Below, piece after piece: positions 770 to 34,462 of a DNA stretch of 62,241 bases (the stretch's first letter is position 1; each line of letters starts with the position of its first letter). The stretch lies in NCBI GenBank assembly GCA_012727955.1, contig JAAYGB010000016.1:1-62241 (forward strand), given 5' to 3'. The translations under genes and the position numbers were made by a program. The notes under the pieces are model-generated. The model searched no databases, was not told where the DNA came from, and saw only the letters and a program-made list of their open reading frames with translations. This DNA comes from Bacillota bacterium. Lineage in GTDB: Bacteria > Bacillota > Limnochordia > DTU087 > JAAYGB01.

Positions 770-3700
770 TTAGGTTCGTGGAAGAATGGGCACCGGGAAG
801 TTGACTCCCGAAGTCAAGAAGGCCAAATATCCTGCCGCTACGGGGCTTTGGCGAATCCTGGTTAACCCTTGTGCGTAGTAGTTCACTTGAGCAAGATAGC
901 GTTGGGCATAATAGGGAACATCCTCTGGGGCCACATTATCGGTCTTAAAGTCCACAATCACCAGTCCCTGGGGCGATGGCAGGATCATGTCTATAATCCC
1001 CCGGACAACGATGAGATCTTCGTCACCCCAAGCGGTCTGCTCCGGTAAGGCCAAAGCAAAGGGAACCTCTCGCTCCACTTGGGTGCCGGCTGCGAGGATC
1101 ATCTGGCCCAAGTCTGTAGCAAAGAAGCGAGCTACCACCTCAGGATTGATGAGCTTGGCTTCCGCCGGTTGCAGTCTACCCTGAGCCGCCAGATCAGTGA
1201 TAACCTCCGCTACAATCCTGGAATCAGCCAGATCCTGTTCCAGGGAAACCAAGTGCAAAAAGCGGTGTACGGCGTTACCCCGCATTGCCCCTAGCCCCCG
1301 TTCCAACTCACCGGCCAAAAAGCTGGGCCGAGGAAGCTGTAGTGAAAACTTGGAGCCCCGTGGGGCTGCTGTGGTACTCTGCCGCTGAGCCGGGGACAAG
1401 TCCTCACTTTGTGCCAAGTCCGTTACAGCGTAACTTCTTCTTACCCTTTGCCACTTTGGATCGGGGTACCGCCAGTCTAGCAATTGGCTGTAATCTGCAT
1501 CCGGCAGTTCCCCTGGCTTCGGAAGGGGCTGTAGGCGGCGAAGATGGCCAGCGATCTCCAGATCATCCTGGGAGTCATCGTCGCCGGCCGAGACATCGAC
1601 TCTGCCCTGAGGTGTCTGGGGCTCAGGGCCAACACCGACATACCAATGACAGGGATACCCAGCTAACTCTACGTTAGCTGGAGCACTGCTGCACTCCGCC
1701 AACTGGCGCAGTGGGTGACCATCCCGATGCCGGATCACCGCCATACCGATCCAGTCCAACATACACCTAGCCTCCAGCAATTGCAGTGTAGGCAATTGCC
1801 TGTGGGGATGTGTCACCCCGTCGGTCCACCGAGAACACATCTGGGCGGGATTGGCACCGCTGCCCACCAGGATTAACTTCTCCCTGGCCCGGGTCATAGC
1901 CACATAGAGAACCCGCATTTCTTCAGCTAAGATTTTCCCCTTGATGGTATAGGCTGCTGCCAGAGAGCTAAGGGTAGACCACTTCTGCCGGGCATTGGTG
2001 TCCACATGCCGCAACGCGATCCCAATTTCACTGTCAAACTGAAGATCGCCGTAAACATCCGAGAGATTGAAGCGCTTTGCCAACCCCGCGACAAACACCA
2101 CAGGAAACTCCAATCCCTTGCTCTTATGGATACTCATAATCTTGACCGCGTTAGAGGCAAGATCCGTGAGCGACGTCTCTAAGCCCCCTTCACTGCGCAG
2201 CCTGGTCAAATGCCGAATAAAACCCGATAGCACCGGCAGATGGGTTCCTTCAAACTCCTCGGCTAACTGCACCACCTGTCTCAGCTTACGCAGCCTAAGA
2301 TCGATATCGGGAGCGTACTGGACAAATGCCCCCGGTCCCAACTCCCGCAGGAGATGGCGAATCAAGTAGGAGGGCCCCAACTGGCCAACTCGGCGCCAGT
2401 CAGCCAGTTTATCGAGAAAGTCCTTTACCTTCTCTCCCAGTGCAGATCCACTCTCACCATAGGCTTGGAGAGCGTCGGCAAGTTCTGCCTCAGGATGATC
2501 AGCTTTGATCTGGGCTATCTCTTCGACACTAAAGCCACCGATGGGGCTTAGCAACACGCTGGCCAGCTGGGGGCCCAAACGACCGTTATCGATCAGCTCT
2601 AACAAAGCTACCAGTAACCTGGTTTCCGGGCCGTCAAAGAGCTGACCACCAGCTAGGGATCGGGCAGGAATGCCCTGTTGCTGCAGTACCTGTCGCACCG
2701 TCTCGGCCGCTCTGGAGGGCGAGCGCAGTAAAATCGCAATATCGCCATACTCCAGGGGACGGGACTTCTTGGTCTTGTTATCAAAGACAAGATACCCGCC
2801 TTCGATCAGCTGATGGATTCTTCCGGCGATAAATCGTGCCTCTTGCTCCATCGCAGTGATGGCCACATCGCTGGATTCATCCTCTAGGGCAGTGGACTGG
2901 GCAGCTGAGGTATCCAAGAGATACAATTCTACGGGATTCTTCGAAGAAGGAGCCTGTCCATCCTCATACCACTGGGCTCCGCCGGTAAGGAAATCCCCTT
3001 CGGTGTAGTCGATCTCTGCGGCCTGCCGGGTCATCACCTGTTGAAAGACATAGTTAACTGCCTCCAGGACCTCTTTGCGAGACCGGAAGTTATGGGTGAG
3101 GGAAATCTGTCTCAATTTGGCATCGGGTTGATGACTATAGGTTCCCAGTTTGCTGACAAACAGTGTCGGATCTGCCAACCGAAACCGATAAATACTCTGC
3201 TTCACGTCACCAATTAGGATCCGATTGGGTAATCCCTCCTGAGGGCCTTCCGCAGCATCCCGGGAGATTAGATACAAGATTTCGTCTTGAATTTGACTGG
3301 TGTCTTGATACTCATCGATCAAGATCTCATCATATTCGTCCCTCAGGCGCTGAGCCAAAATGACCTTACCATCAACGATCGTGTTCAACAGCTCTAGTGC
3401 CAATCTTTCCAGGTCGGCAAAATCCACCACTCCTAGGCTCCGCTTCCTTCTGGTGTAGTCCCGGGCAAAGGCCTTGACCAAGTCCAGGATCGCGACAACT
3501 CGCTTACGGTCCTCGGGCAGATCCTGAGCAAAGCTATCGAGGCTGCGGGAGAAAACACCGCTTCTTAGTTCGTTAATCCTTTTTTTTACCTGATCCCTGA
3601 GCTGCTTGGCTGCCGCCTGAGCTTCTGGATCTACCTCCTTGCTGCGACTGCCCTTGAGTGTCGGAAAGCTCGGGAGAAGCCCAGGAACCTGCTGCCAGTT

Positions 3701-26143: not shown

Positions 26144-26308
26144 ACTAGCTCTCCTCCTTTATCTATCGATAGTTTAACTGCTTTTTTCCCCATTATCAAC
26201 CAAAGCGAGGATTCTTTATTTCAAATTGTCAGGCAGGGAAACTCCCCATTTTTGTGGAAGGAACATCAAGCTTAACTAACGGGTTTCCCGAAATCACAAT
26301 ATCATATT

Positions 26309-26520
26309 ATTGGTCCGCCGGTGCCCCAGGTTTTCAACCATGGGGAGAATAGGGAATTCGGTGCAAATCCGAAACGGTCCCGCCACTGTGATCAGTCTGG
26401 CCCTCTCTAAGACAATCCACTGTCGCCAAAGCGATGGGAAGGAAAGGGAGGGTTGCTTCGGCTGTAAGTCAGGAGACCTGCCGGCGGATGGGCACCACGC
26501 TCTTCGGGTGAAAGAGAGGT
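26309..26520 (+). ncRNA. Cobalamin (B12) riboswitch
   Basis: All main marks of the adenosylcobalamin class are present: GGTGCC at 26320, GGGAATTCGGTGCAAATCC, the CGGTCCCGCCACTGTGA block, and the B12 box GTAAGTCAGGAGACCTGCC at 26464-26482. Two mutually exclusive pairings are visible: TCCGCCGG (26314-26321) with CCGGCGGA (26481-26488), and GGTGCCC (26320-26326) with GGGCACC (26490-26496). GAGGT near 26516 can also pair with ACCTC at 26561, competing with the terminator. B12 binding would stop transcription of btuFCD. Confidence 0.96.
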
Positions 26521-26658: not shown

Positions 26659-27567
26659 ATGAAAAATCCTTGGATGAAGTTCCTGCTGTTACTGGCAATC
26701 CTAGTCCTTTTCCCAGCGACGATTGCTGCTGGCAGTCCCGCTTCAATCAGAATCGTCGATGACCTGAATCGAGAGGTGATCCTGCCGCGCCCCGCAACAA
26801 GAATCGTCAGTCTGGTACCCAGTCATACCGAGATCTTGTTTGCCCTGGGAGCCGATGACCAAGTCGTGGGCGTTGATGAGTACAGTAATTGGCCAAAGGC
26901 CGCACAAAGCAAGCCTCAGGTGGGAAATCTTAACGGTATCAACTATGAAATGATCTTAGCTCTGCAGGCGGATCTGGTTCTGGTCCTTACCAGTCATCAG
27001 AACCAAGGGGTAATTGAGCGCTTAACGGATCTAGGGATTCCGGTGCTGGCCCTGGAAGCCCAGAGCATGGCAGAGACCTACGAGACTATTGCGACTTTGG
27101 GAACCGTTACCGGATGCGATGCCCAGGCAGAAGAGCTGATTTCGCAGATGCAAGCCAGAGTTGCCGCGGTCATCGAGGCAACCAGTGGTCTGCCAGCGGT
27201 TCCCGTGTTTTATGAAGTGTGGCACGATCCCCTAATGACCGCGGGTCCCGGTAGCTTTATTCAGGAATTGATTGAGCTGGCCGGTGGCCGCAACATCGCC
27301 GAGGATGCAGCCAGTGCCTGGCCCACCTTCAGTCTTGAAAGCCTGATCCAGCGAGATCCCCAGGTGATCATTACTTCCTTTGAGCAAACTATTGCGGACC
27401 TGGACAGCGGGGCCCGCCCCCAATGGCAGACCCTTTCTGCGGTTAGAAACGGAAGGTATTATCTCATCGATCCCGACATTATCGGCCGGCCTGGACCTCG
27501 CATCGTCGACGGCCTCGAAGCCATTGCAGCTATGATCCATCCAAAGGCGTTGGAGGCTCATGAGTAA
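26659..27567 (+). CDS. btuF: Cobalamin ABC transporter substrate-binding protein
   Basis: A helical-backbone (FecB/BtuF class) binding protein that delivers corrinoids to BtuCD. It has a signal peptide (KFLLLLAILVLFPATIAA) without a lipobox Cys. Next comes the fold signature IRIVDDLNREVILPRPATRIVSLVPSHTEILFALGA-like segment (start at about residue 30), then VVGVDEYSNWP and the C-terminal GPRIVDGLEAIAAMIHP. A GTG at 26647 in the same frame is an alternative start; neither has ideal Shine-Dalgarno spacing, and a stop codon at 26626 excludes longer forms. Its position directly after the B12 riboswitch supports corrinoid rather than heme or siderophore transport. Confidence 0.92.
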   Translation: MKNPWMKFLLLLAILVLFPATIAAGSPASIRIVDDLNREVILPRPATRIVSLVPSHTEILFALGADDQVVGVDEYSNWPKAAQSKPQVGNLNGINYEMILALQADLVLVLTSHQNQGVIERLTDLGIPVLALEAQSMAETYETIATLGTVTGCDAQAEELISQMQARVAAVIEATSGLPAVPVFYEVWHDPLMTAGPGSFIQELIELAGGRNIAEDAASAWPTFSLESLIQRDPQVIITSFEQTIADLDSGARPQWQTLSAVRNGRYYLIDPDIIGRPGPRIVDGLEAIAAMIHPKALEAHE

Positions 27568-31121: not shown

Positions 31122-31307
31122 CTAACTAGAGTCAGTCTCCCCTGCTAGCATACGTTCAGCCCGCTGAATCGCAGCCCGAACCAAGGAGCCTGCCTCTCTG
31201 GTTGTGATGTTACCCCAGTCACCGTCCTTGACCTTGTCATAGAACCCGAGTTCTTGGGCCAACTCGTACTTCAATCGGTCAGACATGACTTTACGCCTCC
31301 GCGGCAT
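31122..31307 (-). CDS. Alpha/beta-type small acid-soluble spore protein
   Basis: A 61-residue protein with the SASP signature: RLKYELAQELGFYDKVKDGDW followed by the GNITTREAGSLVRAAIQRAE helix. SASPs coat and protect DNA in dormant spores and are expressed in the forespore. This form, with an insertion between helices (FYDKVKDGDWG), resembles the SspF-like group of clostridia. Three possible starts exist (31316 GTG, 31307 ATG, 31286 ATG). GGGAGTG is best placed for 31307, and GGAGG for the inner ATG. Its presence indicates an endospore former. It lies 57 bases after xylA on the same strand. Confidence 0.85.
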   Translation of the reverse strand: MPRRRKVMSDRLKYELAQELGFYDKVKDGDWGNITTREAGSLVRAAIQRAERMLAGETDSS

Positions 31308-31363
31308 GAACATCACTCCCAGGTCTAGTGTCCCCTCTGAGAGGGATAACTAACTGCCCAATC

Positions 31364-33619: not shown

Positions 33620-33680
33620 CTTGTGACCTCCCCACCAATATTGTGGCCCAGGACCCGAGCCCAGCATCTGCAAGATCGGG

Positions 33681-33984
33681 AGTAATTACCAGCGACTTAG
33701 TTGGATAGTAACGAAGTTGCCGGGCACAATACCAGTGAGGTCAGATCCGGCAAACTCCTTCCAAAGTCCAGTCCTTTGGAAGCGTATCCGAACACAGGTA
33801 ACCACGGAATTAGGGTTCTGCCGCCACTTCCGGCGGTATCGTGGTTACGCCCACTGACGGATGATCGGTTTTCACAAGGATGTGAACCGAGATGAGTGCC
33901 AAATCACCGGATCTGGCCTCTTTTTTGCCCTCGATGAGCTTCCTTCCGACTCCACCCTTACCCCAAGCAAATTAGGAAAAAGGC
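33681..33984. repeat. Tandem repeat unit, copy 1 (304 bp)
   Basis: The unit starts with AGTAATTACCAGC and runs to the start of copy 2 at 33985. The inner 200 bases are nearly identical to copy 2, while the first 40 and last 60 bases have diverged much more. No gene is seen in it; the open frames across it are structure-driven and not conserved. It is too long and too few-copied for a CRISPR array. Confidence 0.9.
33737..33926 (+). ncRNA. Structured RNA candidate, copy 1
   Basis: The closing helix P1 pairs 33737-33750 (GAGGTCAGATCCGG) with 33907-33920 (14 pairs, one G-U) and runs straight into six T at 33921-33926. Inside are P2 (33758-33766 with 33774-33782, nine pairs), P3 (33798-33806 with 33840-33848, nine pairs) carrying P3a (33821-33825 with 33832-33836), and P4 (33866-33876 with 33881-33889, with a two-base bulge). 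Wobble pairs such as 33741-33916 and 33820-33837 are G-U only if the plus strand is the RNA, which together with the T-run sets the strand. I cannot match it to a known class. It may be a stand-alone RNA or a leader element of the small ORF at 34364. Confidence 0.6.
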
Positions 33985-34290
33985 AGTACTTACCAGCCCA
34001 TCGGCTGCATACTAGCGAAGCCGCCGGGCACAATACCAGTGAGGTCAGATCCGGCAAACTCCTTCCAAAGTCCAGTCCTTTGGAAGCATATCCGAACACA
34101 GGTAACCACGGAATTAGGGTTCTGCCGCCACTTCCGGCGGTATCGTGGTTACTCCCATTGACGGATGATCGGTTTTCACAAGGATGTGAAGACCGAAATG
34201 AGTGCCAAATTACCGGATCTGGCCTCTTTTTTTGCCCTCGATGAGCTTTCTGCCGATTTCGCCCTTGCCCACGGAAAATAGGAACAAGAG
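33985..34290. repeat. Tandem repeat unit, copy 2
   Basis: Starts with AGTACTTACCAGC at 33985, directly abutting copy 1. The 3' end is diffuse: similarity to the tail of copy 1 fades around 34290 (shared GCCCTCGATGAGCTT and an AATAGGAA block). Confidence 0.9.
34041..34233 (+). ncRNA. Structured RNA candidate, copy 2
   Basis: Same architecture as copy 1: P1 34041-34054 with 34213-34226, followed by seven T (34227-34233). Substitutions relative to copy 1 lie in linkers between P2-P3, P3-P4 and P4-P1. A two-base insertion (GA) in the 3' arm of P4 turns the bulged helix of copy 1 into an 11-pair helix (CGGTTTTCACA with TGTGAAGACCG). One linker change (CACT to CATT) keeps possible pairing with AGTG as G-U. 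This pattern argues for selection on folding. Confidence 0.6.
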
Positions 34291-34363: not shown

Positions 34364-34462
34364 GTGGTAGAAGCCAAGGGCAAGGGCATCTACGACGGGT
34401 TTACCTTTATCATCTTCTTGATTCTAATTCTGCTCCTGTTGGGCACGTTTGCTTACTACTAA
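34364..34462 (+). CDS. YjcZ-like small hydrophobic sporulation protein
   Basis: A 32-residue ORF starting at GTG with GGAGG eight bases upstream. A short polar head (MVEAKGKGIYDG) precedes a single membrane helix (FTFIIFLILILLLLGTFAYY). This head-helix-aromatic-end layout is that of the YjcZ family of tiny sporulation proteins (typical FALIVVLFILL core). It is followed by an intrinsic terminator and preceded by a sporulation-like promoter and the tandem RNA element. The family call rests on a short sequence and is moderate. Confidence 0.6.
   Translation: MVEAKGKGIYDGFTFIIFLILILLLLGTFAYY

Follow-up and report, generated by a model that had tools for sequence, protein, structure and literature searches.

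The locus described here lies in a 62,241-nucleotide stretch of DNA (the window) from a Bacillota bacterium and consists of two abutting units. An earlier note had presented them as a tandem 304-bp repeat, and the boundaries that we obtained agree with this description (Table 1). Upstream of the repeat, on the minus strand, are encoded an FAA hydrolase, a xylose-isomerase-like protein, a SASP and a 6-phosphogluconate dehydrogenase. Downstream, a 32-aa ORF begins on the plus strand about 130 nt beyond the second U tract, and the minus strand carries a gene resembling mandelate racemase. Since SASP genes are present in the genome, one of them inside the window, we take the organism to be a spore former. 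The 32-aa ORF is tied to the repeat by position alone and matched no family in Pfam or NCBIfam. One weak paralogue is encoded in the genome (L036, about 1501-1593, minus strand), and the RNA model described below matched nothing around it; by eye, these two tiny single-helix proteins resemble YjcZ-type sporulation proteins. Elsewhere in the window, a Cobalamin riboswitch (Rfam RF00174, 121.7 bits; 26302-26499, plus strand) is located just 5' of same-strand genes starting from 26647, and the translations at 27560 and 28621 beyond it resemble the permease and the ATPase of an ABC importer.

Table 1. Positions of the features of the twin units and of two nearby genes, numbered from the first base of the window.
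Feature	Position	Strand	Remarks
Repeat unit 1	33678-33981	+	304 bp
Repeat unit 2	33982 to about 34290	+	abuts unit 1, spacing 304
Forespore-like (sigmaG/F) promoter candidate, copy 1, TGGATA-N17-CACAATA	33702-33731	+	consensus match only
Forespore-like (sigmaG/F) promoter candidate, copy 2, TGCATA-N17-CACAATA	34006-34035	+	consensus match only
Predicted RNA 1, ~190 nt	33737-33926	+	P1 5' arm through U6 end
Predicted RNA 2, ~190 nt	34041-34233	+	P1 5' arm through U7 end
Candidate intrinsic terminator, copy 1 (P1 3' arm + U6)	33907-33926	+	pairs with 33737-33750
Candidate intrinsic terminator, copy 2 (P1 3' arm + U7)	34213-34233	+	pairs with 34041-34054
P1, copy 2	34041-34054/34213-34226	+	14 bp, one G-U
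P2, copy 2	34058-34061/34200-34203	+	
P3, copy 2	34062-34070/34078-34086	+	9 bp
P4, copy 2	34089-34094/34162-34167	+	
P5, copy 2	34101-34110/34144-34153	+	
P6, copy 2	34123-34129/34136-34142	+	
P7, copy 2	34169-34180/34185-34196	+	perfect 12-bp stem owing to GA
Candidate CsrA site, copy 1, ACAAGGATGT in P7 hairpin	33874-33883	+	SELEX consensus
Candidate CsrA site, copy 2, ACAAGGATGT in P7 hairpin	34178-34187	+	GGA unpaired, probability 1.0
SASP-type small spore protein gene	31122-31316	-	PF00269, E 2.9e-8; about 2.4 kb from the RNAs
32-aa single-helix ORF, GTG start	34364-34462	+	own GGGAGG site

Each core folds into a structure in which a closing helix, P1, encloses a short P2, a 9-bp P3, P4 (itself enclosing P5 and P6) and P7. 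P1 comprises 14 bp with one G-U and continues directly into six U in copy 1 and seven in copy 2, which is the geometry of an intrinsic terminator. Compared to dinucleotide shuffles, the plus-strand fold reached z scores of -5.95 (copy 1) and -8.05 (copy 2), against a mean of -0.36 and a minimum of -3.7 for 193-nt segments taken elsewhere in the window. A P1-type helix with 14 of 14 pairs followed by at least six T was encountered at just the two RNA sites when both strands of the whole window were scanned. The shared multi-helix fold and the closing helix running into a U tract, both put forward earlier, are thus beyond chance. The minus strand folds almost equally well at the twin copies (z of -5.2 and -7.7), so that folding energy alone is undecisive, and it is the U tract, the position of the promoter candidates and the 4-6 G-U pairs that favour the plus strand. 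In the predicted fold several loops are accessible, namely UCCAGUC, AACACA, ACUUCC, CCCAUUGA and GCCAAAUUA. We consider it very probable that the twin units encode structured RNAs.

Alignment of the two copies revealed 5 substitutions over the 198 aligned bases of the core, together with one 2-nt indel and one U-tract base, as against 28 substitutions over the 106 aligned bases of the flanks (Fisher p = 5e-10); the outer bases are indeed more diverged than the core. The block that is kept extends from the -10 element to the U tract, which are functional boundaries. This contrast implies that the core is either constrained or homogenised by gene conversion: if a single duplication gave rise to core and flanks alike, selection acts on the core, the alternative being local gene conversion. 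The substitutions had been assigned to linkers, which holds for the four of five that fall in unpaired columns, an excess over chance (about p = 0.06, an estimate) that is too weak to be used as evidence. The fifth, G to T at 33849, lies at the outer end of P5, where a non-pair becomes a G-U pair, in accordance with the G-U option that had been recognised there. The indel is a GA in the 3' arm of P7 (the P4 of the earlier note) of copy 2 and, as claimed, gives full pairing, with a 12-bp stem instead of the 5+5 bp with a bulge of copy 1. Because this indel and the difference in U-tract length put all frames out between the copies, a conserved peptide is unlikely and a coding repeat was discarded; a 27-aa ORF starting 3' of P7 in copy 2 is likewise frameshifted in copy 1. 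The stretches just 3' of each U tract (33927-33972 and 34234-34279) are partly kept too, GCCCTCGATGAGCTT being identical. On their minus strand several differences fall at third codon positions, probably by chance, and a search of them for a conserved frame or start found neither.

Forespore sigmaG-type promoters follow the consensus TGNATA (-35) and CATANTA (-10). Both promoter candidates agree with 10 of its 11 specified positions, and their predicted +1 falls at the start of P1 in both copies; the consensus was picked after the sequence had been seen, so this match can serve as a lead but does not amount to a test. Background rates for the promoter, and for the hairpin discussed below, were established on about 385 kb of the genome (770 kb counting both strands). 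Matches at 10 or more of the 11 positions occur elsewhere about once per 10^5 bases, and TGNATA-N17-CANANTA is matched exactly six times in the genome, twice at the twin RNAs and four times elsewhere. One SASP gene of the same genome scored merely 8/11 with the same matrix, which leaves the local sigmaG consensus uncalibrated. A search for a sigma-70-type promoter for the RNAs found none. The idea of a spore RNA, raised in the earlier note, gains indirect support from the promoter candidates and the SASP genes, and on such consensus matches forespore expression of the twin RNAs appears evenly balanced.

Rfam 15 gave no match to the twin RNAs at gathering threshold, and relaxing the cut-off to an E of 10 added only two matches, both at chance level and on the wrong strand, in keeping with the earlier impression that no known RNA class is represented. 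Within the genome this locus was the sole match to the unit. No homologue was found by DNA search of the genomes of the order and class (73 class genomes), nor by covariance-model search of the order, the class and a 398-genome sample of the phylum. The model was built from two nearly identical copies, and genome searches with it go through a loose first look. A 17-mer scan of ~85,000 GTDB species returned four matches, none credible against the RNA model and all taken as chance (the two that were inspected resemble coding sequence). One IMG/VR match, L017, L022 of G173 and L048 were also taken as chance, with no credible full match to the model, and IMG/VR patterns, phages and plasmids yielded no credible match to the twin RNAs. 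The window's family is represented by this one genome and its order by 12, a sampling in which a fast-evolving RNA could be missed. The term 'conserved' used earlier therefore applies between the two copies and not to homologues in the genomes searched. The RNA is a new sequence family, ordinary in kind, with its match confined to one genome among those searched.

A canonical CsrA is encoded next to FliW in the same genome. SELEX has given RUACARGGAUGU as the consensus for CsrA, its GGA being placed in a hairpin loop (PMC7652899), and the P7 RNA of both copies, ACAAGGAUGU, matches the last 10 nt of this consensus exactly. In the predicted fold of each RNA the GGA within P7 is entirely unpaired, and the other four GGAs are paired wholly or mostly. 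A SELEX-like ARGGAU hairpin loop and a csrA gene thus occur together in this genome, which by sequence makes each twin RNA a candidate CsrA-binding RNA. The flagellin leader (L054:1456-1500, contig C14) carries the hairpin GUCC[AAGGAU]GGAC followed by ACAAGGAGG at the ribosome-binding site. In B. subtilis, hag has two CsrA sites, with an overlap between one of them and the ribosome-binding site (PMC7652899), and by analogy the flagellin leader is likely a two-site CsrA-controlled leader; the AAGGAU loop of P7 therefore recurs at a plausible CsrA target. In 770 kb of strand we counted 15 ARGGAU hairpins whose stems had 4 bp or more, which amounts to a chance of about 0.004 per 190-nt RNA before correction for motif hunting. 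The 12-bp stem of P7 in copy 2 is longer than the stems of most SELEX ligands (PMC7652899). With one accessible site per RNA an efficient CsrA sponge is doubtful, and a CsrB-like multi-site sponge, for which several GGA motifs in hairpin loops are required, was rejected. Binding of CsrA by the twin RNAs seems to us a serious possibility that falls somewhat short of probable.

These data taken together, the units are probably twin tandem, duplicated, independently started and self-terminating genes for ~190-nt orphan sRNAs; we infer their transcription, sigma factor, CsrA binding and function. Each copy would be transcribed from its own promoter, possibly with the help of sigmaG or sigmaF, the sigma factors of the forespore. 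The 5' and 3' ends of the RNA would pair as P1, which with the U tract would act as intrinsic terminator and leave a compact RNA with closed ends. CsrA may bind the AAGGAU loop of P7 and be either titrated from mRNAs, for instance from the flagellin leader, or employed to assist pairing of the RNA with target mRNAs. The full combination of a forespore-expressed and CsrA-binding duplicated sRNA, with a regulatory role in titrating or recruiting CsrA alongside FliW, is rather unlikely as a whole. Similar cores could be accounted for by gene conversion, which counts against this explanation, as does, for its CsrA part, the fact that FliW already supplies CsrA control.

Nearly as likely as its opposite is a role of the same structured sRNAs that does not involve CsrA, either in base-pairing or in scaffolding proteins, with the match in P7 due to chance. 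The RNAs offer several accessible loops for such a role and the background rate of ARGGAU hairpins is not negligible, but both copies show the SELEX match, exact over 10 nt and in the proper register of the hairpin, csrA is present in the genome, and the loop recurs unchanged in the flagellin leader. A tandem cis-acting leader, i.e. a riboswitch or attenuator pair controlling the 32-aa ORF through the P1 terminators, was another suggestion of the earlier note, which the tandem arrangement 5' of a same-strand ORF would suit. The P6 segment GCCACUUCCGG (34125-34135) partly complements the 3' arm of P1 (34213-34226) and might form a weak antiterminator at -16.1 kcal/mol; P1 itself, far stabler at -26.8 kcal/mol, is however the terminator. 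The distance from the second U tract to the ORF also argues against a leader, as does a GGGAGG site belonging to the ORF itself. No riboswitch class of Rfam matched, so that known riboswitches found no support, and the one alternative pairing observed is weak. Because both RNAs have a promoter-like element to themselves and are closed by a terminator helix, we consider a tandem leader improbable and separate sRNAs more likely.

The mobile structured element proposed at the same time was not supported, this locus being the sole match in the genome. A MITE-like mobile or repeated element, or a recent duplication that gene conversion has homogenised, in either case without RNA function, would account for tandem, near-identical units, and gene conversion is possible with two copies. 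This reading is nevertheless highly improbable in view of the single locus, the lack of any credible match among phages, plasmids and IMG/VR patterns, and a kept block that coincides with functional boundaries.

The twin sRNA genes can be compared to three known systems. CsfG and Bvs196 of Bacillus are structured, independently transcribed forespore sRNAs under sigmaF/sigmaG (PMC9147052); a similar promoter type is the candidate here, whereas the twin RNAs lie in tandem, are closed by their own terminator helix, occur in a single genome among those searched and match no Rfam family. With CsrB/CsrC/RsmX-Y-Z they share a GGA in a hairpin loop and a SELEX-type sequence (PMC7652899), but they have one accessible site each instead of many, lack an Rfam match and belong to a genome with FliW. 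In B. subtilis, CsrA promotes the pairing of the sRNA SR1 with ahrC mRNA, and the twin RNAs may similarly be regulatory RNAs assisted by CsrA, in a genome that is of a Gram-positive type and encodes FliW (PMC7652899). Unlike SR1, they hold no peptide ORF kept between copies. SR1 also differs from them in architecture. New in this analysis are the forespore-like promoter candidates and the candidate CsrA site in P7. Functional studies exist for few forespore sRNAs (PMC9147052), and the locus provides a concrete candidate for an orphan sRNA from a poorly sampled spore-forming lineage. According to a 2020 review, joint modulation of CsrA by FliW and sRNAs remains to be determined in any species (PMC7652899), and this locus is a candidate for it. 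If true, a Csr-type regulatory RNA alongside FliW would link CsrA to spore development.
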